Of a stretch of 64,000 nt of DNA, positions 22,880 to 37,586 are shown piece by piece. Within the stretch, counting starts at the first letter, position 1. Each line of letters begins with the position of its first letter. This DNA comes from Pseudomonadota bacterium (GTDB taxonomy: Bacteria; Pseudomonadota; Gammaproteobacteria; Burkholderiales; Rhodocyclaceae), in NCBI GenBank assembly GCA_018241685.1, contig JAFEDJ010000009.1, positions 248,001 through 312,000 of the forward strand, in the 5' to 3' direction. The notes beneath the pieces were generated by a model. That model saw nothing but the letters and a program-made list of their open reading frames with translations, searched no databases and was not told where the DNA came from. Position numbers and translations under genes: made by a program.

Positions 22880-23284
22880 ATGTCAAAGTCTGCGACTCAG
22901 TATCCCTTTGCTCCAAAGTCCACCCGGCTACTCAGACGCGGTCAATTCTGGGCCATCCCCTTGGCATTCGGACAATTTGGCGCCGGTTGCGTGGTAGGAA
23001 TGCACTCAAGAGCAGGCAAGGCCAGCCAACGCATGTTCATCGCTGGCGTAGTTCGCTGGGTCGGTACGCATGCGCCATCCGCAACTGACATCGAGAACCG
23101 CCCGCTGGTCGAGTTTGCATTTGCTCATCTAAAGGCAATCACCGAATCCGGCGGGCTAGTCCTCGGCGAAGCCCACCTTCAGTTCGCCGAGGCTCCGGCT
23201 ACAGCTGAGTCGCTGTCTTTGCCTACGTGGGGCTTTGGCGCATTGCGTTCTACACAACGCCCCCTGCATTCCCGGCTTCGATGA
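22880..23284 (+). CDS. Integron cassette 4 protein, truncated by the IS
   Basis: The gene starts 6 bp after the attC-3 core. Residues 1-119 read as a real protein (RLLRRGQFWAIPLAFGQFGA, VVGMHSRAGKAS, ESLSLPTWGFG); the early FWAIPL-x-x-GQFG stretch is reminiscent of Imm26-type immunity proteins, a tentative similarity. From 23238 the frame runs into the left end of the IS4 element, and the last about 15 residues (ALRSTQRPLHSRLR) are IS-derived. The original 3' end and its attC are lost. Confidence 0.65.
   Translation: MSKSATQYPFAPKSTRLLRRGQFWAIPLAFGQFGAGCVVGMHSRAGKASQRMFIAGVVRWVGTHAPSATDIENRPLVEFAFAHLKAITESGGLVLGEAHLQFAEAPATAESLSLPTWGFGALRSTQRPLHSRLR
23238..23258 (+). repeat. IS4 element left inverted repeat
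   Basis: Begins GCGCATTGCGTTCTACACAA; one mismatch to the reverse complement of 24634-24654. It overlaps the transposase stop codon. Confidence 0.8.
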
Positions 23285-24584
23285 GGGGTAGCGCTTGAAT
23301 CACCGTGCGAATCTTCTGCAGCCCGAGCCAGATGCTCTTTACGCCCGGCTCGCCGTCGCCCTTGCGCCCGATGAAGCCGCCGAGCATGGCGATCAGGCGC
23401 AGAACCTGATTGACCTTGGGTTTGGGCGGCGGGCGTTTGCCGTGCAGCGCGTAAGCGACGCGGATTTCGTCGGGCGCGAACGCGATGCCGGCATCCAGTT
23501 CTGGATGGGTTCGCCCGAGGCGCATCAAGTGGCCGATCCGCCAGGCCACGACCAGATACAGCGCGATGGCCCGCTCCAGCTTCGCGTAGGAGTCGAGTTG
23601 CAGGGCTTCGACGCGACAGCCGTTTTTCAAGGTGTTGAAGAGAAGCTCCACTTCCCAGCGCGCCCGATACCAATCTATCAGCATGATCGCCTCGTCGAGC
23701 GTGGCCACCTCGCGATTGCTCAGGAGGCGCCACTGGACGGGTTTTATGCCGCTCGGCGCACCGACCTCGCTCGCCAGCACCACGCTCACGCTCACCGTTC
23801 CGCCCGCGCCATCGGGCAGCGCCTGGCGCAGCACGCGGATCTCCTGACGCACCCTGCGCGCCGCCTGGCCCTGGCGCGAGGCCATCTGGAACTGCACTTC
23901 ACCCAGCACGGGCGCCGCCGCCAGCGCCGCGCTGAGCTTCGGCGCTCCCTTGCCCAGCGAGCGGTCGTACTGCGAGCGGATCAGCCAATCGGCCGGTGTG
24001 CCCAGGTCACGTGCCCGGCGCATCAGTTCCACGATATCCGCTTCCCGGTCCGCCACATACACCAGGCGCGTCTCGGGCAGGGTCTGCGCCTGCTCGGCCA
24101 CCCGGGCGTAGCCTTCGAGCCAGCGCAGACTCTCGGGAATCCCCTCCCGCGGTGCCTCGCCCCGTTTGAACGCCCGCGCCCACATCCACGCATCGATCAC
24201 CCCAAGGGGTTCCCGGGCGGGCGTCACCGCGTAGGTCGGATGCACGTACATCCCGCGCTGAGCCTCGTAATTCAGGGGGCCCAGCCCCCGCGCCGACTTG
24301 CCCTCGAAGTCCAGTTCGGTCGTGTCCTGAATGCACAGCACTACCGGATGCATCTGCATGCGCCGCGCACTGGCATCCCAGTGCGGCTGCATGAGTTCGC
24401 GCCAGTCCACCGCCTCGCGGCCCAGGAAACGATACGCTGCATGCATTTCCGCCGAACCACGGCAGGCCTCCGGGATACTTGCCGAAGGCTGCTCCCCGAG
24501 CCGATCGGCCAGCAGCACCAGCCGCTTGTTCAAACGTTTGTCGCCCAGGTCCGCGCCGCCAAATTCCTCTTCCGCCCAAATCAT
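23250..24584 (-). CDS. tnp: IS4-family transposase
   Basis: A 444-residue transposase. Residues 1-60 match the IS50/Tn5-type N-terminal DNA-binding domain (WAEEEFGGADLGDKRLNKRL, ACRGSAEMHAAYRFL). The catalytic core has the first Asp in IQDTTELDF (about 107), the second in VYVADREADI (about 190) and the YREK-type signature in WYRARWEVELLFNTLKNGC with its Glu (about 318), completing a DDE triad. The C-terminal region (LRLIAMLGGFIGRKGDGEPG) is typical of this group. All motifs look intact, so the enzyme may be active. Confidence 0.95.
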   Translation of the reverse strand: MIWAEEEFGGADLGDKRLNKRLVLLADRLGEQPSASIPEACRGSAEMHAAYRFLGREAVDWRELMQPHWDASARRMQMHPVVLCIQDTTELDFEGKSARGLGPLNYEAQRGMYVHPTYAVTPAREPLGVIDAWMWARAFKRGEAPREGIPESLRWLEGYARVAEQAQTLPETRLVYVADREADIVELMRRARDLGTPADWLIRSQYDRSLGKGAPKLSAALAAAPVLGEVQFQMASRQGQAARRVRQEIRVLRQALPDGAGGTVSVSVVLASEVGAPSGIKPVQWRLLSNREVATLDEAIMLIDWYRARWEVELLFNTLKNGCRVEALQLDSYAKLERAIALYLVVAWRIGHLMRLGRTHPELDAGIAFAPDEIRVAYALHGKRPPPKPKVNQVLRLIAMLGGFIGRKGDGEPGVKSIWLGLQKIRTVIQALPLIEAGNAGGVV

Positions 24585-24616
24585 CGCTGGTCCGAAAAAT
24601 CACTCAGAACTGGAGT

Positions 24617-25465
24617 CTAAGAGGACTGGAAGAGTTGTGTACAACGCAATGCGCTAAACCCTCTCGTGTTTGCGAGATCGTAATACAGTCCAGCAGTCAC
24701 TCGCCGTAACCAGAGCACAGGGAGTGGGCAGTAGAGATGCTCTGGCTTTTTAGGGTCAAGTCCAACTAGCGGATGGGCTTCGAGCTCATTCCAGGTGTAT
24801 TGCCAGAGACCATCGTACTGAGTTGCTGCGTTAAAGCGCTCACGAAGCTCAGACACAGGAAGAGCTAAGCGCCGAAAAAAGTCACTCGATGCTTCGCGTG
24901 AGATGCCAAATTCGCCGTAATTCTGGGCAGCATTAACGCGTGGCGAATGCAGGAGATGTCCTGCTACAGCCATTCCAAGAAAGTAATACTGAGCAGTGGC
25001 TAGTCCGGTAGAAGCAAGCATTATTTTGTCGAACTCAACCTGTCCGAAAACCAGCAGGTAACGCCCCATGGCGCTTAAATCGTGGTTGCCCTGAAAGCGG
25101 AACTGTTGATGCGCAAGGCGGTGGATGCCAATAAGGACGTCTTCCTGATCCAGCTTTAGTCTTGTGGCGGCATCCGATGCGTCACGCATCGCATTAACTA
25201 CTGGGCCAAGGCTAGTCATTGTGTCGAGACGATTTTGCCCACAGTTGGATGCGTGGAGAATTAGTTCTCGAGCTAATAACAGTAAATCCCAAGGGTATAG
25301 CAGAGTCCGCAAGCTGTTGGCGTTGTAGCCAAACCTACCGGGTGATGGGGCGTCGTTGTTCGAAAGATAGCGTGCGAGTTGCCATACGTCGATTAACGAT
25401 GCTTCGAGATGTTGCTTGCGCAACATATTGCGAAACGGTTTGTAGTCTTGATAGATGTCAGTCAC
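24617..25465 (-). CDS. Hypothetical protein, C-terminally truncated by the IS
   Basis: A 282-residue frame starting at GTG 25465. It is rich in helices and aromatic residues (YKPFRNMLRKQHLEASLIDV, LYPWDLLLLARELILHASN, YYFLGMAVAGHLLHSPRV, PVLWLRRVTAGLYYDLA) and lacks a signal peptide. The last about 13 residues (from ALRCTQLF) come from the right end of the IS4 element, so the true C-terminus is missing. The surviving part looks like the N-terminal portion of a larger cytoplasmic protein, perhaps with a lost C-terminal catalytic domain. Family not recognised. GC content is clearly below the window average. Confidence 0.55.
   Translation of the reverse strand: MTDIYQDYKPFRNMLRKQHLEASLIDVWQLARYLSNNDAPSPGRFGYNANSLRTLLYPWDLLLLARELILHASNCGQNRLDTMTSLGPVVNAMRDASDAATRLKLDQEDVLIGIHRLAHQQFRFQGNHDLSAMGRYLLVFGQVEFDKIMLASTGLATAQYYFLGMAVAGHLLHSPRVNAAQNYGEFGISREASSDFFRRLALPVSELRERFNAATQYDGLWQYTWNELEAHPLVGLDPKKPEHLYCPLPVLWLRRVTAGLYYDLANTRGFSALRCTQLFQSS
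24634..24654 (-). repeat. IS4 element right inverted repeat
   Basis: On the minus strand it begins GCGCATTGCGTTGTACACAA, facing inwards towards the transposase start. Confidence 0.8.
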
Positions 25466-27674: not shown

Positions 27675-28406
27675 TCAGAAAAAACCAAATCGCCTCTTCG
27701 CAACGTTACGGCGCTTAGGATCAATGATGTCATTTATACCTACTCGATCGAGGCGGTCGAGTAGCCTCCCGGAACCCGCGTTGAGTTTTAACTGCATCTC
27801 TTCCTCATACAGGGGCAGTACCGAGTAAAAGGTTATTTTCTTGTCTTTGTCGATTTGCAGTTCGTGGAATCCGTCGGGCACAGTAATCGACGGCAAGATG
27901 ATTGCTCCGCACAACGACGTACCTGGCGCATAGGGCGCAGGTGGATCACCGTTGGGAATGGTATGCCCCCATCCAAGCCACGTGGCATGTTTGTGGGGAA
28001 ACCTTGCCAGAGTCTTGATGAGACGAACTGGCCAGTACCAGCTTTCATCTTTGAAGGAGGCTTGATCAAGCCTCCAGCTCTTGGGGAGGGTGACAAGCAA
28101 CTCGGTATAACGAGGGACGTCTGCCCCCTCAGGAACAGGCATCGGCAGATCGCTCATTCCGGAGGTAACCAGCCGAGCAAACGGAAAGTGCTCTGTGGGT
28201 TTCACGAAATGAACGTCAACGTGTACGGTATCAGAAGCAATCTCGTGAAAGACAGTCTCGACCGGCCCTAGATGAGCCTCGATGTGATTCGAAATCTCCT
28301 CAATACACTCCTCCCCCAGGGGCACCTTCCAGGAGTCTTCTTCTCCATGCCGGAGAAGAAGGCTTCCGCCCCGTGAGACAGCGCCTTCATCGCTTTTCGA
28401 ACTCAT
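27675..28406 (-). CDS. Suppressor-of-fused (SUFU) domain protein
   Basis: A 243-residue cytoplasmic protein. The block from about residue 100 to 180 is typical of the SUFU domain: YTELLVTLPKSWRLD, YWPVRLIKTLARFPH, TWLGWGHTIPNGDP and LCGAIILPS. Bacterial SUFU proteins are repeatedly found as candidate immunity proteins in polymorphic toxin loci. Here no toxin gene is adjacent; the neighbours are a small hypothetical protein and, 128 bp upstream, the large helicase gene on the same strand. It could be an orphan immunity gene or an accessory of the helicase locus. The start at 28406 is preferred, as no better internal ATG exists. Confidence 0.8.
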   Translation of the reverse strand: MSSKSDEGAVSRGGSLLLRHGEEDSWKVPLGEECIEEISNHIEAHLGPVETVFHEIASDTVHVDVHFVKPTEHFPFARLVTSGMSDLPMPVPEGADVPRYTELLVTLPKSWRLDQASFKDESWYWPVRLIKTLARFPHKHATWLGWGHTIPNGDPPAPYAPGTSLCGAIILPSITVPDGFHELQIDKDKKITFYSVLPLYEEEMQLKLNAGSGRLLDRLDRVGINDIIDPKRRNVAKRRFGFF

Positions 28407-28534: not shown

Positions 28535-31500
28535 TCAGCTCGAAGCCTGCGCCAGCACCGCCTCCAACCGTCCCCTGCTTGCAGCTCTCAACTTCATCAA
28601 ACCAATTTCCCGCGCCATCGCAATCAGCGCCTCCTCACCTGACTTTCCAGAATCGACAACCCCCAACGCGAGCGACAGCAATTCCTGCTCGCAGATCTCA
28701 TCCACTCCGCGTGCGCTGTCCTCATCAAAAGGCCATCTGAAGGCAACTTCGGTACCGGGTATAACGCCATCGGGCCAGTAAAAGACTCCAGCGGCTTCTT
28801 CCGTGGCGCCGACGCATTGCCGAGCAATTTGTGCGACACGTTCCTGAATGCGGCTGCCGGTGCGCTGAAAACCATGCGCACGAGCAATGCGGCGAGCGAG
28901 TACTGCGTCGAGCACAGGGCCTTCATGCCGGACAACCCATTCAACCATCAGTCTTAAAACTTCGTCATAAGCTGGCTCGTAGAACTGTTCGACCGAGATA
29001 ACTCCTGCCTCTACAGCGTCTTCTGGCAGCGATGCACGGAACTGACGATCCGCGTTGTTGGTGACGCTGAACGCAGTCATAGCAGACGTAGTTGCGGCAC
29101 GGACCTCAAGCGCCTCAGGGGATTCGTTCATGGCCTCCTGCGATGACACCAGCGGCTTTACCGCCGCACTGGCGATGGTCAGCGCAGCCTCCTCCAATGC
29201 CTTGTCAGTATCCGGCACGCCCTCGTCGACAGTTTGAGCTTCGGCACTTGCTGCGTGCGTACTGGCTTCGAGTGCCCGGCGCTCGCGGTCCTGGGTAAGC
29301 AAGTCATTCAAGCGCACATGCACGCGCTCCAGCGTGCCGCCTGGGTTAACCCACCAGTCGGTGGACCAGATCCGTTCAATCTCCCAACCCAAGCCACGCA
29401 GCACTTGTTCGCGCAGTTTGTCGCGGTCACGTGCAGTGGCTGAACGGTGGTAGGTGGCGCCATCGCACTCGATGCCGGCCAAGTAACGCCCAGCGTGATC
29501 GGGATGAACCACGCCCAAGTCGATGCGGAATGAAGATGCACCGATCTGGGTATGCACTTGCCAACCCTTGCGCCCCAGCGCCGCGGCGACAGCGCCTTCA
29601 AAGGGGCTGTCGAAATCACCTTGACTGCCGTGATGTGCTTCGGCCAGGGCACGGGCACCGCGTTCGGCGAATTCGAGGAAGTGCTTAAGATCGCGCACAC
29701 CGATTGCCTTGGTGCGGGAGAGGTCCATTTGCTCCCCTTGTAGGCTGGAGAACACGCGCAGTTCATGGCGCGCGCGCGTCACCGCGACATTGAGCCGGCG
29801 TTCACCACCATCGCGATTCAGCGGGCCGAAGTTCATCGACAGCGCGCCACTGATGTCGGGCCCGTAAGTGATGGAGAAATACATGATGTCGCGCTCGTCG
29901 CCCTGCACGCTTTCCAGGTTCTTGACGAACACGGGTTCGAGTTCTACTTCGGAAAAGAAGGGTTCCAGACCTGGATCCTTACGACGCTCCGCGTCGAGAA
30001 GGTCTTCGATCAGACCTTGCTGTTCAGAGTTGAAGGTAACCACGCCGATGGTAAGGCCTGACTGCCGGAAGCCCGGCGACTTGAGGCGCGCCACAAGGTC
30101 GGCAACCAAAGCACGTGCTTCGAGCTGGTTGATGCGGGCACCACCCTTTTCATATTGTCCATTGACAAGATGGAAGCTCACAGCACGATCTTCGGTGACC
30201 GGTGATGGGAAAGTAACCAGACTACCGTTGTAATAGCGATGGTTACTGAAAGCGATCAAGCTTTCGTGACGGGAGCGGTAGTGCCAAGAGAGGTTACGTG
30301 TGGGCAGGCTCGCTCCCAAGCATTCGTCGAGGATGCTCTCAAGATCGCCTTCCACGTCTTCCGAGTCCAGAGCTTCGGCTCGATCGAAGAAATTGGTGGG
30401 AGGCAGTTGCTTAGGGTCACCAACCATCACCACTTGCTTGCCACGCGCCATGGCTCCGATAGCGTCCCACACCGGAATCTGCGAGGCCTCGTCGAAGATG
30501 ACGATGTCGAAGCTACTGGCATTTGCCGAGAGGTATTGGGCAATGGAAAGCGGGCTCATCAACAGGCAAGGCGTGAGCCGCAACACCACGGAGGGAATAT
30601 CCTCAAGCAATTGGCGTAGAGGTTTGTGCTGTTTTTTCTTGGTGATCTCGTGGCGCAGCACGCCCCACTCGCTGTTGCGCTGCAGGTTTTCCGATGACGG
30701 GAGCCCCGCGCAGAGCTTGGCGCGGATCCATTGACGAGTCACCTTTGTGAACTCCTCGTCAAGAGCCCGGAATTCGATGATGCGGCGTTCGTGTTCAGCC
30801 GAAACGAAGCGCTTGAGTACGTCGTCTTCATCGACGGCCTCGGCCAGCCACCAGCGAGCGTAGTTCACCTCGAAAGCTGCGGGTACGCGGGCAGGTTCAA
30901 TATCACCAGCAACGATAGAATCGACCAATGCCGCCAATCCAGCACCACGAGCCGCAGTTTGAGCATTACGCCAAGCACACCAAGCATGCAAACCAGCGTG
31001 TGCGCTGTCCAGTTGGAGGGCGACACCGCCCATCTCATCAGGAGTAAGGTCAGCAAATGCGCGCTTCACCTCCTCAGGCTGGCCTGCGTAGCTACTGAAA
31101 GCGGTGACGGCAGCGTTCAATTCCGCAAGTCTCGCAAGCATCTGTTGGCAGGCATTACTGATAGCGCCTCCTTCGCTCAGCTCAGTTGCGTGTTCAGCCA
31201 GCACGCGGTGCAGCGCCTGGCGAATGGCATCGAGTGACATTGCGGGTAGGCAAAGCCCGGAGAGCGCAGCATGCAGTAACGAATGGAAGCGCAAGGCATC
31301 GGTAATGGCATCGGTGTCGGAGTCCAGACCTGCCCATACACCAGCGCAATGGGTATCGACAGCTGTGAGACCAGCCAACCTGATCTCAAGTGCTGCACGC
31401 TCTTGCAGCCGGGTATACGCCTGGAGCAATCGAGAACCACAACGACCTTCGGCGACAGCCGGATGCGCAACTTGAAGGGCACCGTGCACCTTCAGGCGCA

Positions 31501-34500
31501 GGCGCTCCTGCTCGAAGGCCAACGCAGCACGGAGTAGCTCAATATCGGTTTCATGCCCCCGCCAGAGACCGTCGCTGACTTCCGTCAGCGGCGCGCAATC
31601 GGCAATCTGCCTATCTAGATCCTGTAAGGCTTTTAGCCGGCGCACCTCAGCAACCCAACGCTCCCCACAGTAGCCCTCGGCAGCTGGAGTCAGTCCATCC
31701 AGCGAGTAAGGGCGTTGAGCACGTGCGGCTTGCAGGCTAGCGTTGGCCAGCAGAGCGCTACGGGCATAGTCGGTGCGGGTCTTCTCTCCCGCCCACAGGC
31801 CCTCGACAGCCGCCCCCGGATTCACCTCGCCCACTTCGTCACGTAGACTCTTGATCCGCACCAGCGCCGCCAGATCCTCGGCGATGCGGGGTTCGTCAGT
31901 GCTTTCAATGACGGACTCCAGCGTGCTACGAACTTTACGTTTCCCTAACCAAGCCAGCGGCCAGAGAGCCTTTTCTGCCTTGGCCCAGTCGCGCTGAAGC
32001 AGCGTGATATTGAGTTGCGCGACGCCCGAGCCATACTTCACTGACAGACCATCTCGCAGTTGCGCGATCTCCTCGATGCGCTGAATACCGTGCTGTAGCT
32101 CATCGCTCACGGCAGTGGGCCATGCCGTACCCAGCTCAGCATGCACACGGCGATGCTGGTCCAGCAGATCCAGCGCATGACGCAGTTGGGCCTGTTGCTC
32201 GGGGGGCCAGACCGAGGGAATCCGGCTTGAGCTTTCGCGATGTTGGCCGAGTATCTCGGCTCCAGCCTTCAGCTCCGAGCAGAGTTCGGCACTCTGCGGC
32301 AAGACACTGAAACTCCAAGCTTTACCAGCCGCTTGCGGTAAGGCCTTGGCGATGACACCGAGCGATGAACGGACGTTGCGGTGCAGAACCGGAGTCTCAA
32401 ACCCCAGTTGCTCGCACAACTGACGAGAGGCAACGATGAGACGGTCGCAGGATTCACTGAGAATCTGTGCAGCGCGCACCATCTCCTGCTGCCAGCGCGC
32501 AGACCATTCGCTCAAATGTACTGGGGTCAGTGGTCCTGCATGGAGTGTCTGAGCCCCAACTGCCATGGCGTTGGCCTGCAATCTGCCCGCTAACTCGCGC
32601 AATGCAGCCAGAGCCTCTTCGTCGTGCTCCCGTGGCGAAGGCCATGAGAAACGGAGATCGGGAATAGCTTCACCACCGACCACACTACCAATGGCCCGGT
32701 ACACAGTCAGGCCATTGCCGTGTCTGTGGTGCAGGCGTTCGACGTAAGTCGACAGGTGTTCACGCACACGACTGAGTTGGTGGGCTTTAGCCGCCCAGTC
32801 AGCTGCATCCTCGCTGCGAGAGTCCCAGGATTTTTGCAACTGAGCCAATACATCAAGCTTGCGAGTCTTGTTGGAGTGCAGTTCGAGGCAGAACTCACCC
32901 AGGCCGACTTCACGAAGACGGCGGTAGACAACATCCAGTGCAGCAATCTTTTCGGCCACGAAAAGCACGCGTTTGTCTTCGGCCAAGCATTGGGCGATGA
33001 GATTGGCGATGGTCTGACTCTTGCCGGTACCCGGTGGGCCGATGAGCACGAAGTCCTTGCCTCTGGCTGCGGCCATCACGGCCGAGAGTTGAGAGGAATC
33101 GGCTGGCAGAGGGCTGAATACCTGCTGGGGCGTATAGTCAACATCAAGTCGGTGTGCATCCGGAAAGGGCACGGTCGACTGGTAGGGCTCACGTGGCGTA
33201 TCGATCAAGTGAGCCACCACGGGGGACTTGCGCAGGTCTTCAGCGCGCTCTGCCAGATCCTTCCACATCAGGTACTTGGCGAAGGAGAACATCGACAGCA
33301 CAACGTCCTCGCTGACCTCCCACCCCCGGATATCCTTGATGGCGGCACGCACACGCTTCCAGATGTCAGCGATGTCCAGCCCGGAATCATCACGCGGGAG
33401 ATCGCCCTGCGGCACGCCAAGTTCGAGTTGGAAGTCCTGGCGCAGCATTTCGACGAGCGTGGGGTTGAAACGCGGCTCGTCATCGTGCGCATGCAACGAA
33501 AATCCCGATCGAGCACTCTTGCGATCCAGCGTCACGGGCAGCAGGATCAACGGGGCCTTGACACGGTGGTCCGGCTTGTCGGGCCGTGTCCAGACCAGGA
33601 AACCCAATGCAAGGAAGAGCGTATTGGCACCACCTTCCTGCAGAGCATTGCGGGCACCACGATAGAGATCGACAAGGCGATTCTCAAGCTCCTGCGCCTC
33701 GAGGCGAATGAAAACCTCGCGACGCTTCAAAGCGTCGGCCGCATGCGCCTTGCGCAAGTCCTCCAAGCTACGGGCTTCGTGCAATTGGAGGCTTCGTGGA
33801 TCGCGGCCCTGCATCAAATCAGGACTGGGCAGTAATTTGAGTGTTTGCCCCTCGGCTACCGCATCTTCAAGGGCCGGCGCCGCCGCATCGAGTTGTAGCG
33901 CATTCTTGCCGCCCTTGAAATTGAGCAGAGCATTACGCAACGACAGGTCTAGTAGTTTGCGCTGCCAACGGGCCAGCCGATCCTTCGGATCCAATTCTGT
34001 ACTAGGGACTTCCTGCACCACCTCGTCGGGCAGGTCGGGAGCATCCTCGAACGTGACTACTGCTTCGGCTTCATGAATAGGCTGGGCTTGTTCGGCCACT
34101 ACCTGCCCCAAGGCCAGCGGCTTGATGCGCGACATGCGGGCACGCTTCACATCCACTACCAATTCAAACTTGTCGTCCTCACCCTCGGATAGCTGACGAT
34201 CACCTTGAGATATGGCTTGGCTGAAGCTGACAGGGTGGCCTTGAGCTGCCAAGGTTGTCTCAAAAACAAGCATCTCCTGAAGCTGGAGGCGCTTGCGGAC
34301 CGCCGTGATGTCGTCAACGACTACAGTAGAGAACGTTTCATCCCGCAACCACAGCCCCACAAAAGCATGACCATGTGTGACGATCAAGAGCGGATTGAGG
34401 TTTGCCTGTTCCAAGCACGATGCAAACAGCAGCGTAAGGTCCAGACACGTAGCCAAGCCAGCATCAAGGATCTGTCCCGGGCTTCGCACCTTCTGCCCCC

Positions 34501-35176
34501 GGTGCTCAAAACTGGCTGGCGGCAGAGCATAGTGAAGCTTTCGTTGCAGAACGGCAGTCCATATCCCGGAGGCCAATTCCCAAGCGCGTTTGGCGCCGTG
34601 GGTATAACCATCAATGGAACCAGACTTGCCACCAGCCTGCAAAGCCTGAGCCGCAGCTTTGAGTACGTGATCGACGGCAGGATCATTGGGCTGCACGAAG
34701 GCAGCCACCATCTCCGGGGCATAGCCAATACCGCCCCACTGATTACGGGCCAACAGTTCGACCACACGATCGTGCTGGGCAATAATCGTCTCGGGTTCCT
34801 TACGGCTTCTAAGCTCGAAACACAGTGTTGCGGGTTCAGCCTCAGTAAGGCGAGACAGCAGGGAGCCATCCAGTTGAACGTCCAAATCAGCGATGTGAAA
34901 GGTCTCGCCGGCACCGATCGTATCAATACTCCAAGTCCGAGGCTTCAGGAATGCAGGCTCGGAGGTTATGGTGATAGTCAATTCACTGATAGGAGCCAGT
35001 GTCTCATTGACAATTGCCAGCTCATGCAGCGCGGGGACCGAATTTTGGAAGTCGGCAAGATTTAACTTGTCAACAACAGCGACCTTTAGGTGAATTCCTG
35101 GCGCCGGCGAGACTGGGGTCGAGGATGTTTCGATGATTGGAGCTACCTCTTGCAGCTGACCCACTTCTTCGTTCAT
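28535..35176 (-). CDS. DUF4011-helicase-Vsr-like-DUF3320 defence protein (Hhe-like)
   Basis: About 2213 residues. Order: N-terminal beta-rich region; a transglutaminase-like segment (ATCLDLTLLFASCLEQ, THGHAFVGLWL, about 220-270); DUF4011 (DRLARWQRKLLDLSLRNALL, about 410); an SF1 UPF1-like helicase split by a very long insertion, with Walker A GPPGTGKSQ (about 712), Walker B DEASQIPVWD (about 1558), GDPKQLPPT and NVAVTRARHELRV; a Vsr/DUF559-type PD-(D/E)XK region (SPFEGAVAAALGRKGW, GIECDGATYH, about 1845-1915); and a C-terminal DUF3320 (LRLMVEWVVRHEG). This matches the single-gene DUF4011-helicase-Vsr architecture reported as anti-phage (Hhe). All helicase motifs look intact. ATG 35176 (weak GAGAGAA site) is preferred; an ATG at 35350 overlaps the upstream stop as ATGA and would add 58 residues. 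Confidence 0.88.
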   Translation of the reverse strand: MNEEVGQLQEVAPIIETSSTPVSPAPGIHLKVAVVDKLNLADFQNSVPALHELAIVNETLAPISELTITITSEPAFLKPRTWSIDTIGAGETFHIADLDVQLDGSLLSRLTEAEPATLCFELRSRKEPETIIAQHDRVVELLARNQWGGIGYAPEMVAAFVQPNDPAVDHVLKAAAQALQAGGKSGSIDGYTHGAKRAWELASGIWTAVLQRKLHYALPPASFEHRGQKVRSPGQILDAGLATCLDLTLLFASCLEQANLNPLLIVTHGHAFVGLWLRDETFSTVVVDDITAVRKRLQLQEMLVFETTLAAQGHPVSFSQAISQGDRQLSEGEDDKFELVVDVKRARMSRIKPLALGQVVAEQAQPIHEAEAVVTFEDAPDLPDEVVQEVPSTELDPKDRLARWQRKLLDLSLRNALLNFKGGKNALQLDAAAPALEDAVAEGQTLKLLPSPDLMQGRDPRSLQLHEARSLEDLRKAHAADALKRREVFIRLEAQELENRLVDLYRGARNALQEGGANTLFLALGFLVWTRPDKPDHRVKAPLILLPVTLDRKSARSGFSLHAHDDEPRFNPTLVEMLRQDFQLELGVPQGDLPRDDSGLDIADIWKRVRAAIKDIRGWEVSEDVVLSMFSFAKYLMWKDLAERAEDLRKSPVVAHLIDTPREPYQSTVPFPDAHRLDVDYTPQQVFSPLPADSSQLSAVMAAARGKDFVLIGPPGTGKSQTIANLIAQCLAEDKRVLFVAEKIAALDVVYRRLREVGLGEFCLELHSNKTRKLDVLAQLQKSWDSRSEDAADWAAKAHQLSRVREHLSTYVERLHHRHGNGLTVYRAIGSVVGGEAIPDLRFSWPSPREHDEEALAALRELAGRLQANAMAVGAQTLHAGPLTPVHLSEWSARWQQEMVRAAQILSESCDRLIVASRQLCEQLGFETPVLHRNVRSSLGVIAKALPQAAGKAWSFSVLPQSAELCSELKAGAEILGQHRESSSRIPSVWPPEQQAQLRHALDLLDQHRRVHAELGTAWPTAVSDELQHGIQRIEEIAQLRDGLSVKYGSGVAQLNITLLQRDWAKAEKALWPLAWLGKRKVRSTLESVIESTDEPRIAEDLAALVRIKSLRDEVGEVNPGAAVEGLWAGEKTRTDYARSALLANASLQAARAQRPYSLDGLTPAAEGYCGERWVAEVRRLKALQDLDRQIADCAPLTEVSDGLWRGHETDIELLRAALAFEQERLRLKVHGALQVAHPAVAEGRCGSRLLQAYTRLQERAALEIRLAGLTAVDTHCAGVWAGLDSDTDAITDALRFHSLLHAALSGLCLPAMSLDAIRQALHRVLAEHATELSEGGAISNACQQMLARLAELNAAVTAFSSYAGQPEEVKRAFADLTPDEMGGVALQLDSAHAGLHAWCAWRNAQTAARGAGLAALVDSIVAGDIEPARVPAAFEVNYARWWLAEAVDEDDVLKRFVSAEHERRIIEFRALDEEFTKVTRQWIRAKLCAGLPSSENLQRNSEWGVLRHEITKKKQHKPLRQLLEDIPSVVLRLTPCLLMSPLSIAQYLSANASSFDIVIFDEASQIPVWDAIGAMARGKQVVMVGDPKQLPPTNFFDRAEALDSEDVEGDLESILDECLGASLPTRNLSWHYRSRHESLIAFSNHRYYNGSLVTFPSPVTEDRAVSFHLVNGQYEKGGARINQLEARALVADLVARLKSPGFRQSGLTIGVVTFNSEQQGLIEDLLDAERRKDPGLEPFFSEVELEPVFVKNLESVQGDERDIMYFSITYGPDISGALSMNFGPLNRDGGERRLNVAVTRARHELRVFSSLQGEQMDLSRTKAIGVRDLKHFLEFAERGARALAEAHHGSQGDFDSPFEGAVAAALGRKGWQVHTQIGASSFRIDLGVVHPDHAGRYLAGIECDGATYHRSATARDRDKLREQVLRGLGWEIERIWSTDWWVNPGGTLERVHVRLNDLLTQDRERRALEASTHAASAEAQTVDEGVPDTDKALEEAALTIASAAVKPLVSSQEAMNESPEALEVRAATTSAMTAFSVTNNADRQFRASLPEDAVEAGVISVEQFYEPAYDEVLRLMVEWVVRHEGPVLDAVLARRIARAHGFQRTGSRIQERVAQIARQCVGATEEAAGVFYWPDGVIPGTEVAFRWPFDEDSARGVDEICEQELLSLALGVVDSGKSGEEALIAMAREIGLMKLRAASRGRLEAVLAQASS

Positions 35177-35346
35177 GCGCGGTTCTCTCTGAATCGTGTA
35201 CTTAAGCGTGGAGAAAGAGGCCATCAGGAAGTCATGAATGCCGGCATGACTGGATTGCCTGGCAGGCCGTCGCCCGAAGATGCTCTGGCCAAATCCCTGC
35301 TCCTTCGAATCTCGGCCCCCTCGGACAAACGCACCGGTTTTTTCGA

Positions 35347-37014
35347 TCATCGCATGCGCGCTTCATCCCCCCTATGCAACAGATCACTCGCCTCCAACAA
35401 CGAAAACGTCAGCTTCGCTTTATTCCGGTCAAACACGTAGATAGCGCCCAAGGGCACTGCCGTCACTACCATTCCGCTCAGCACGGCAGTTACTTGGCTA
35501 TTGAAGACATTGAGCATCGGGACGGGTCGAATTGCCTTGGAGATGACGTTGGCCACATAGACGCCCAGCACCGCGGATGCGGTTCCGAGCATGACGACTT
35601 TGATGCTTTCGAATTTGTTCTCGTCGTCGCTCAGGATCACTCGCACCGAACGCACCACTGACAATGTGCATTCCCGAATGATCGAGAGCATGAATGCGGG
35701 CATCTTCACGATGAGGGAGATGAGTATTTGCGGGATGGCGCTGAGGGCTCCGGCCACGCCTCCGTCGATGCCCGCCTCTTTGGCTCGCGCCCAGATTTTC
35801 CGCTCATCGAAGCGGCGGGCCAGCTTGTCGGAAATGTTTTGCTTGCGCGCCTGTATATTGGCGAGCAGGCCGTTCTCGTCGAAGAACCGCCCGTTCTTCA
35901 CGATGTCCTTGATCTCATCGACAAAAATGTCGATGGTCTCAATGACGATGAGGCCGGCGATCTGTTGTGCTGCCATGCGCATACCCGCGCTGGCGCAAGT
36001 CAAACCGACTTCTTTCAGTGCTTCCCGATGCTGCTGGTGCAGGCGCTCCTGGGCTTTTTCGTAGCGTGCCATGGCGTCCGACTCGCGAATGGAATACTCG
36101 TCATCGCCGATGGTGAGATGCAGCAGATCCGGGTTGTCTGCGTCGGCACGAAGCTCGCCTTTTTCCTTCTTGTACGCCAGGTAGTCGAGCAGATCTTTTG
36201 AATTCTTCGAGCCATTAACATGCTCATCCGCAAACGTCAGGTTGTCCCCGTTGTTCAGCAGTTCGATGATTTCATCGTCGTTTGTGGCAACGCGGAGCAG
36301 CCAGTCGTCGTAATACTGCTGCTTCGGGATGATGTGCTCGATATCCGTATCGTAGGGATTAAGCGGGGAATCCCTGTTGTAGCCATTTTCCAGGGGCTCC
36401 ATCCCGTTCGCGCGAGCAGCAGCCCGTTCGTTGTTCATGCGCGCGAAGTTGGGATCGTCATGCAGGTTGTTTTCGGATTTGAACGTCGTGTAGCTATCCG
36501 ACAGATTGGCGTAGCGGGCTTCGAGCTTGTTATCGAGTCCGGCCATTACAGGGGCCAGACAAAATGCGGAGATGGCGCGCTGGAAAGCCTCGCGCTTGCA
36601 CTGCTCGAAGATGTCGTCGATGTCTTGTGGTCGCGAAGGAAGCCGGTTGCGAATCCCTTCCACCATCTCGGCGGTGGTCTTGTCCACCTCAAATGTGGAC
36701 TTGAAGTAGCTCGTGACCTTTTCTGCGCCGAGGTCCTTGTACTTACCGAATGTGCGCGCGTAGGTCTCGGGGCGCTTCAGCGCTTCTACATCGACCTCGG
36801 CAAGCTTCTTGTTGGCTGCTCTCACCAGCTCGGAGGCTCTGTCCTTGCCCGCAGTGAGATAGTCCCCTCCCCGCTCCAACACGCCATCCTTGAGGCCCGA
36901 AAGCTTGGCGCCCAGGTGTGCCTCACTGGCAGCCCCGATCGCTTTTTCAGTGGTCGACGCAATGGACTCCTTCAACCCAGCCCCCAGGTCCGCAATCTTT
37001 CCAAGTAGCCCCAT
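35347..37014 (-). CDS. HNH-like protein with C-terminal membrane segments
   Basis: A 555-residue protein. Residues 1-110 are amphipathic helices rich in Ala, Lys and Gly. An HNH-type motif follows: DTDIEHIIPKQ (about 222-232) and NNGDNLTFADEHVNGSK (about 254-270), with the His pair, Asn and final Asn/Lys in the usual spacing. A helical linker leads to about three hydrophobic segments: SAIPQILISLIVKMPAFML (about 420), VVMLGTASAVLGVYVANVI (about 475) and AVLSGMVVTAVPLGAIYVF (about 510). It lies directly upstream of the giant helicase on the same strand, so the two are probably co-transcribed. A nuclease tethered to the membrane is one reading; HNH-related non-catalytic proteins are another. No named family is recognised. 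Confidence 0.75.
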   Translation of the reverse strand: MGLLGKIADLGAGLKESIASTTEKAIGAASEAHLGAKLSGLKDGVLERGGDYLTAGKDRASELVRAANKKLAEVDVEALKRPETYARTFGKYKDLGAEKVTSYFKSTFEVDKTTAEMVEGIRNRLPSRPQDIDDIFEQCKREAFQRAISAFCLAPVMAGLDNKLEARYANLSDSYTTFKSENNLHDDPNFARMNNERAAARANGMEPLENGYNRDSPLNPYDTDIEHIIPKQQYYDDWLLRVATNDDEIIELLNNGDNLTFADEHVNGSKNSKDLLDYLAYKKEKGELRADADNPDLLHLTIGDDEYSIRESDAMARYEKAQERLHQQHREALKEVGLTCASAGMRMAAQQIAGLIVIETIDIFVDEIKDIVKNGRFFDENGLLANIQARKQNISDKLARRFDERKIWARAKEAGIDGGVAGALSAIPQILISLIVKMPAFMLSIIRECTLSVVRSVRVILSDDENKFESIKVVMLGTASAVLGVYVANVISKAIRPVPMLNVFNSQVTAVLSGMVVTAVPLGAIYVFDRNKAKLTFSLLEASDLLHRGDEARMR

Positions 37015-37139
37015 CTGCTAAACCCTTGAATCGTGATCTCTTGAGGCTCCCACGGAATAACACATGAAAGCTATGAGGATTGTCCATGTTGGGCAGTGCG
37101 GAACTTCATTTTTGACAGCCATACCTCCTTGATGTGACA

Positions 37140-37208: not shown

Positions 37209-37586
37209 CTAGGTCGCTGTCGCCTCCTCCGCCTTCCCCGCCCTCGCCCGCGATTTCCGTTCCGACTTCTTCTTCAAGCCCAGCGCCGCGACTTGGTCGG
37301 AGTCCACGCCGTATTGGGCCTTGAACTGGTTCTTCACGCCGAGGATGGCGGCGTGGAATTCGTGCTGGATGGCGACGGCCGCATCGCGGGCGGCGGCGTA
37401 GGTGTTCTGGGTGTGCAGTTCGGCGTCGAGGGCGGCCTGCAGTTTGTTGAACAGGGCTGAGACGACGTCGAAGCTGTAGTCGGTGTTGGCCGGCTTGTAG
37501 TCGGGGATGGCCTTGAAGGCGCGGTAGGTTTCGAGGTCAGCCAGGGTCACCTGACTGGGGAGCCGTTTCGAGAGCGGGTTTGCCAT
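37209..37586 (-). CDS. Hypothetical small protein with basic tail
   Basis: A 125-residue protein with a strong AGGAGG ribosome site 5 bases before ATG 37586. The body is helical (LADLETYRAFKAIPDYK, ALFNKLQAALDAELHTQN, AAILGVKNQFKAQYG) and the last 25 residues are basic and Ala-rich (LKKKSERKSRARAGK). No signal peptide or membrane segment. It may be a nucleoid- or surface-associated small protein; the family is not recognised. It has its own terminator and stands alone. Confidence 0.7.
   Translation of the reverse strand: MANPLSKRLPSQVTLADLETYRAFKAIPDYKPANTDYSFDVVSALFNKLQAALDAELHTQNTYAAARDAAVAIQHEFHAAILGVKNQFKAQYGVDSDQVAALGLKKKSERKSRARAGKAEEATAT

Follow-up and report, generated by a model that had tools for sequence, protein, structure and literature searches.

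The Hhe architecture consists of a DUF4011 domain, a superfamily 1 (SF1) helicase and a Vsr-like nuclease. A second family has been named anti-phage protein ProA by NCBI (model NF058533, NCBIfam release 20) and is represented in PADLOC by PDC-S37, where we take the "S" to mean single-gene. HNH nucleases with a membrane part are represented in PADLOC by the candidate PDC-M40, which comprises an SMI1/KNR4-like component (A), a membrane HNH component (B) and a third component (C), while the C-terminal nuclease of GmrSD (PF07510) is found, for example, in BrxU, a protein that to our knowledge has no membrane part. Here we analyzed a stretch of 64,000 nucleotides from a Rhodocyclaceae bacterium (contig JAFEDJ010000009.1, positions 248,001 to 312,000; hereafter the window), in which two open reading frames (ORFs) follow each other on the minus strand, one at 35347–37014 (555 residues) and one at 28535–35350 (2271 residues from the first ATG). 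The original prediction, whose coordinates and strand for both ORFs agreed with our ORF check, had suggested that they would, if conserved together, be a two-component version of Hhe. We consider it probable that they are instead two independent single-gene phage-defence modules, a predicted ProA-family helicase-nuclease and a lone predicted membrane HNH protein, lying side by side in one region of low guanine-cytosine (GC) content. This reading is based on the ProA and PDC-S37 matches of the large protein, on missing linkage between the genes in other loci, and on the invariant HNH residues, HNH-type fold matches, defence-gene company, rarity and lack of a widely common neighbour that characterize the membrane gene, together with the low GC content.

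The large protein matched NF058533 with 2292.4 bits (cut-off 1500) over model positions 1–1902 of 1903 and PDC-S37 with 1257 bits; by its sequence it is thus a member of the ProA family already named by NCBI. It spans nearly the whole ProA model and no feature was found that would set it apart. With Hhe it shares the DUF4011 domain, the SF1 helicase and the Vsr-like nuclease, but its score of 831.2 bits against the Hhe model (NF042953) falls below the cut-off of 2000, which rules out the assignment to Hhe. The ProA-like family is large, as 5637 of 7993 scored candidates belonged to it at E ≤ 0.001. Our literature search found no publication behind the name ProA, and the accessible part of the text of PMC13092281 mentions neither DUF4011 nor ProA. 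The accessible part of PMC10250203 describes a defence hotspot flanked by a large DUF4011 gene, and the genes flanking the hotspot are present in every Pseudomonas aeruginosa isolate. A search of E. coli genomes gave no DNA match to window positions 33500–37100. Helicase copies whose matched region contains an IS21-type element were seen on Klebsiella and Rhizobium plasmids (CP094888.1 and CP095469.1, both 99417–107709; NZ_CP018231.1, 131013–139408).

Pfam profiles recovered the DUF4011, helicase, Vsr-like nuclease and DUF3320 domains that had been predicted, and also bore out the long insertion, which separates the two halves of the SF1 helicase. The nuclease residues D1886, E1903 and D1905 (counted from M59, the probable start discussed below) were invariant in 33 aligned homologues, and C244, H270 and D288 in the N-terminal part were kept in at least 90% of them. 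This conserved Cys/His/Asp set is the one point in favour of the predicted transglutaminase-like segment, since no Pfam transglutaminase matched the large protein. Among solved structures, its sequence matched helicases of the Upf1, SMUBP-2, Sen1, DNA2 and NAM7 types.

In the loci that we compared, the two genes did not occur together. No helicase was found near close relatives of the membrane protein (41–60% identity) in any of 13 loci, which comprised all 11 genome loci, one plasmid (the sole close one among 22 records) and the single viral contig, each with 0.9–12 kb of downstream DNA. Conversely, none of 39 loci with helicase relatives had the membrane gene nearby, and a search of these loci at E values up to 1 returned only a single match of 74 residues with E 0.29. 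Seven of the 39 were plasmid loci, chosen from the best 30 of 442 records, while the 32 genome loci represented all genomes over the cut-off except our own, G1212 and G1081 (internal stop), plus G404, whose helicase is broken and under the cut-off. Upstream (5′) of the helicase, which is the side of the membrane gene in the window, the DNA extended for 0.4 kb in one locus (L028), 1.3 kb in two (L128, L130) and at least 3 kb in the other 36. Even a helicase relative with 84.6% identity (L126) had no membrane gene alongside. Furthermore, in G137, a genome from the same family, a relative of the membrane gene and a ProA-like match (1425 bits, below the cut-off) lie on one contig at a distance of about 3 Mb. 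In that genome, the membrane HNH relative (G137:C1:3406776–3409661; L003, L004, L102) is split by a transposase gene akin to that at 23250–24584 of the window. With the membrane gene lying away from the helicase in 13 of 13 loci and the helicase lying away from the membrane gene in 39 of 39, the proposed pair is not supported in the loci compared; the most similar membrane-protein relatives (79–98% identity) are on metagenome contigs of 2–11 kb and lie outside the 13 loci. Both proteins still look like defence proteins, and the suggested defence role is supported for each, the joint system not.

The junction between the genes was re-evaluated as well. The helicase most likely starts at M59 (35176) and not at 35350, since the identical database protein has 2213 residues and 93 of the 120 homologues among the matches listed have 2190–2230 residues (4 of 120 have at least 2260). 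The stretch AGAGAGAA lies directly 5′ of M59. Given this start, the ATGA overlap noted earlier, which is present in the sequence, is tied to a probably unused start and is itself probably accidental, and the genes would be separated by about 170 bases. A promoter and terminator scan of this interval (35177–35346) yielded nothing decisive.

We found the HNH-like motif of the 555-residue protein (EHIIP...DNLTF...N..K) to be real. All 38 close sequences have H227, N254, N258 and N267, and the 12 sequences of a wider set with 18–60% identity all have H227, N258 and N267; a lack of conservation, which would have spoken against the original reading, was thus not observed. AlphaFold models predicted a beta-beta-alpha metal fold formed by strands 223–227 and 259–263 and helix 264–270. 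In fold searches with the HNH domain, the top ten rows from Foldseek and the top nine from VIA, all with low Z, were HNH/His-Me nucleases or HNH-bearing Cas proteins, and the domain is predicted to be of the HNH/His-Me finger type. Hydropathy predicted a membrane location, with four hydrophobic segments in place of the three counted originally, the first of them (347–365) being the weakest. A Foldseek search with the whole protein was set aside, because its PDB rows were of little meaning and rows for efflux pumps were read as a common helical arrangement. By sequence, only two matches to solved structures were obtained, with E 0.36 and 0.47.

Profile comparison placed the 555-residue protein in a putative distant branch of PDC-M40B, judging from a match of 67 bits (no cut-off is set by PADLOC) between residues 222–517 and model positions 132–426 of 547. 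The same model was matched by 37 of its 38 aligned relatives. The 555-residue protein shares the HNH residues H, N, N and an Arg-Glu pair with the PDC-M40B protein of a Klebsiella grimontii plasmid (L024), which itself scored 928 bits. In the PDC-M40 branch, the membrane HNH relative has an SMI1/KNR4-like gene on one side and a third gene on the other. These flanking genes match PDC-M40A and C; neither component was matched by any of the seven window proteins scanned. Likeness to the GmrSD C-terminal nuclease amounted to 14.9 bits, under the gathering cut-off of 23. Elsewhere, the membrane HNH relative of a Duffyella plasmid comes after a gene annotated as chemotaxis protein that matches PDC-M09A and LeoBC, the relative in Aeromonas phage LAh10 likewise follows a gene with that annotation, and the gene that follows a Variovorax relative showed a weak ZorA match (18.8 bits). 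Partner genes therefore differ between branches of the wider family, and none was seen in the close family: over 12 close loci, no neighbour family was common to more than two, antisense shadows of the gene itself excepted. Those common to two were LysR-type regulators (L019, L020), a protein of 450–507 residues (L014, L018) and an AMP-binding-type gene (L017, L020), and none of the three occurs in the window. A 125-residue ORF at 37209–37586 was rejected as a partner, as the other loci in the comparison had no relative of it nearby.

The membrane gene occurs rarely, namely in two of 150 genomes from the family and, by profile, in three of 398 from the phylum, our own included in both counts. 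The 22 plasmid records with relatives were all large plasmids, and seven records of Aeromonas jumbo phages carried relatives as well, while no phage record matched the 555-residue protein itself. The jumbo phages LAh10 (L116, 96388–97962), D3, D6 and D9 encode relatives of the Duffyella plasmid member that are annotated as cobalamin adenosyltransferase or as hypothetical; the former label looks wrong, because the plasmid protein so annotated has no NCBIfam family. We found no description of a lone membrane HNH protein in the literature listings searched, where it may bear another name. As a tentative idea, possible rather than probable, these proteins might form an undescribed superfamily of membrane-anchored HNH proteins marked by the Arg-Glu pair, with one branch standing alone, others having varied partners (SMI1/KNR4 and a third gene in PDC-M40 or, by weaker matches, ZorA-like or LeoBC-like genes) and copies in jumbo phages, which would cut foreign DNA at entry.

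Relatives of the membrane gene were found in the company of defence genes. At E ≤ 1e-10, 83 of 111 neighbouring ORFs were scanned and matched 116 PADLOC families, compared with 4 families, from three proteins at most, for 83 of 117 control ORFs; families and not genes were counted, one gene being able to match many. The controls were drawn at random at one fixed place in 13 other genomes and differ in species and least length. Among the first 25 of the 116 families were Lamassu (LmuA, LmuB), Thoeris (ThsB), ZorD, Avs1a, DpdE and DRT-type matches, and in a second scan four of ten chosen neighbours matched (LmuB, PDC-S11, PDC-M01A/PtuA and ThsB). In the window, the GC content was 0.50–0.63 over approximately 17–38 kb, compared with 0.59–0.69 around. 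No insertion boundary could be set by empty-site comparison with three genomes of the same genus (G036, G094, G133), two of which have the right-hand penicillin-binding-protein gene and none the left-hand gene.

In a possible mechanism, the SF1 (Upf1-like) motor of ProA may load onto phage DNA or replication intermediates, which the C-terminal Vsr-like nuclease would cut, making the protein a DNA-translocating nuclease; sensing could fall to the long insertion and to the transglutaminase-like part at the N-terminus. C-terminal helices would fix the 555-residue protein in the inner membrane and leave its HNH domain on the cytoplasmic side, where the protein would serve as a tethered DNase against foreign DNA during entry, possibly triggered through the invariant Arg-Glu pair of its membrane part. 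The main rival explanation for it, an abortive effector that upon triggering would cut host DNA and not incoming DNA, appears unlikely, given that the 12 close loci displayed no conserved sensor partner. We regard as improbable that the protein serves conflict between mobile elements, excluding other phages or plasmids, and not defence of the cell; the relatives on large plasmids and in jumbo phages would fit such a role, but close relatives are located among defence genes. A two-component system limited to a small clade, with the membrane HNH protein as effector and the helicase as sensor, could draw on the common strand, an intergenic distance of no more than about 170 bases with no terminator-like site and the 79–98% relatives outside the compared loci, but is very improbable in view of the unlinked 13 and 39 loci, the unaccompanied L126 helicase and the separate genes, the membrane one broken, in G137. 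The features of the two adjacent modules are compiled in Table 1.

Table 1. Features of the ProA-family gene and the membrane HNH gene in the window
Feature	Position	Strand	Basis or remark
ProA-family helicase-nuclease	28535..35176	-	likely 2213 residues; ORF open from 35350; NF058533 match
DUF3320	28841..28987	-	PF11784, 70.5 bits
MTES_1575 / Vsr-like nuclease domain	29312..29602	-	PF18741, 115 bits
Walker B (DEAS)	30482..30493	-	invariant in 33 aligned homologues
Long insertion separating helicase halves	30557..32725	-	Pfam domain positions; limits approximate
Walker A (GPPGTGKSQ)	33014..33040	-	kept in at least 90% of 33 aligned homologues
DUF4011	33443..33958	-	PF13195, 163 bits
Transglutaminase-like stretch, conserved Cys/His/Asp	34310..34447	-	alignment; putative fold
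Intergenic gap if helicase begins at M59	35177..35346	-	no terminator-like or promoter-like site on this strand
Predicted membrane HNH protein (555 residues), putative distant PDC-M40B branch	35347..37014	-	ORF, profile matches, alignment
Four hydrophobic segments (residues 347-365, 418-436, 473-491, 510-528)	35431..35976	-	hydropathy
Invariant Arg-Glu pair R447-E448, membrane part	35671..35676	-	12 of 12 wider-set sequences
HNH core	36190..36378	-	alignments; AlphaFold model mac84ff57ac12, predicted local distance difference test (pLDDT) 92.4
HNH residues	H227 36334-36336; N258 36241-36243; N267 36214-36216	-	alignments

Several other genes were observed around the two modules and their relatives. 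An ORF at 24617–25465 of the window weakly matches GapS1 (31 bits, cut-off 320), and extends at its end into an inverted repeat belonging to an insertion sequence (23225–24667; arms 23225–23258 and 24634–24667); by sequence, it resembles a fragment of a defence gene. A SUFU-domain protein (163 bits) is encoded at 27675–28406, 128 bases downstream of the helicase stop codon. SUFU-domain proteins often act as immunity proteins. No SUFU relative was found near the helicase in the 39 other loci, nor were relatives of the 125-residue, 115-residue and GapS1-like ORFs found beside it there. In four of these 39 loci (L058, L059, L061, L062), each on a rhizobial or Paraburkholderia plasmid, an Mre11/SbcD-like exonuclease and a YhaN/Rad50-like ATPase adjoin the ProA-like helicase. 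A further AAA ATPase lies on the other side of the helicase in L058, L059 and L062, the two of these that were scanned matching PADLOC PDC-S06, and L092 has a relative of this ATPase (76% identity) with roughly 3 kb between it and a broken helicase. These genes possibly form a conserved defence cluster.

Taken together, these results remove the proposed two-part defence system and place the helicase in a family that had been named before. Of continuing interest is the lone predicted membrane HNH protein, with active-site residues that stay conserved down to 18% identity. A membrane-held nuclease would, if true, be a compact means of cutting phage DNA at entry.
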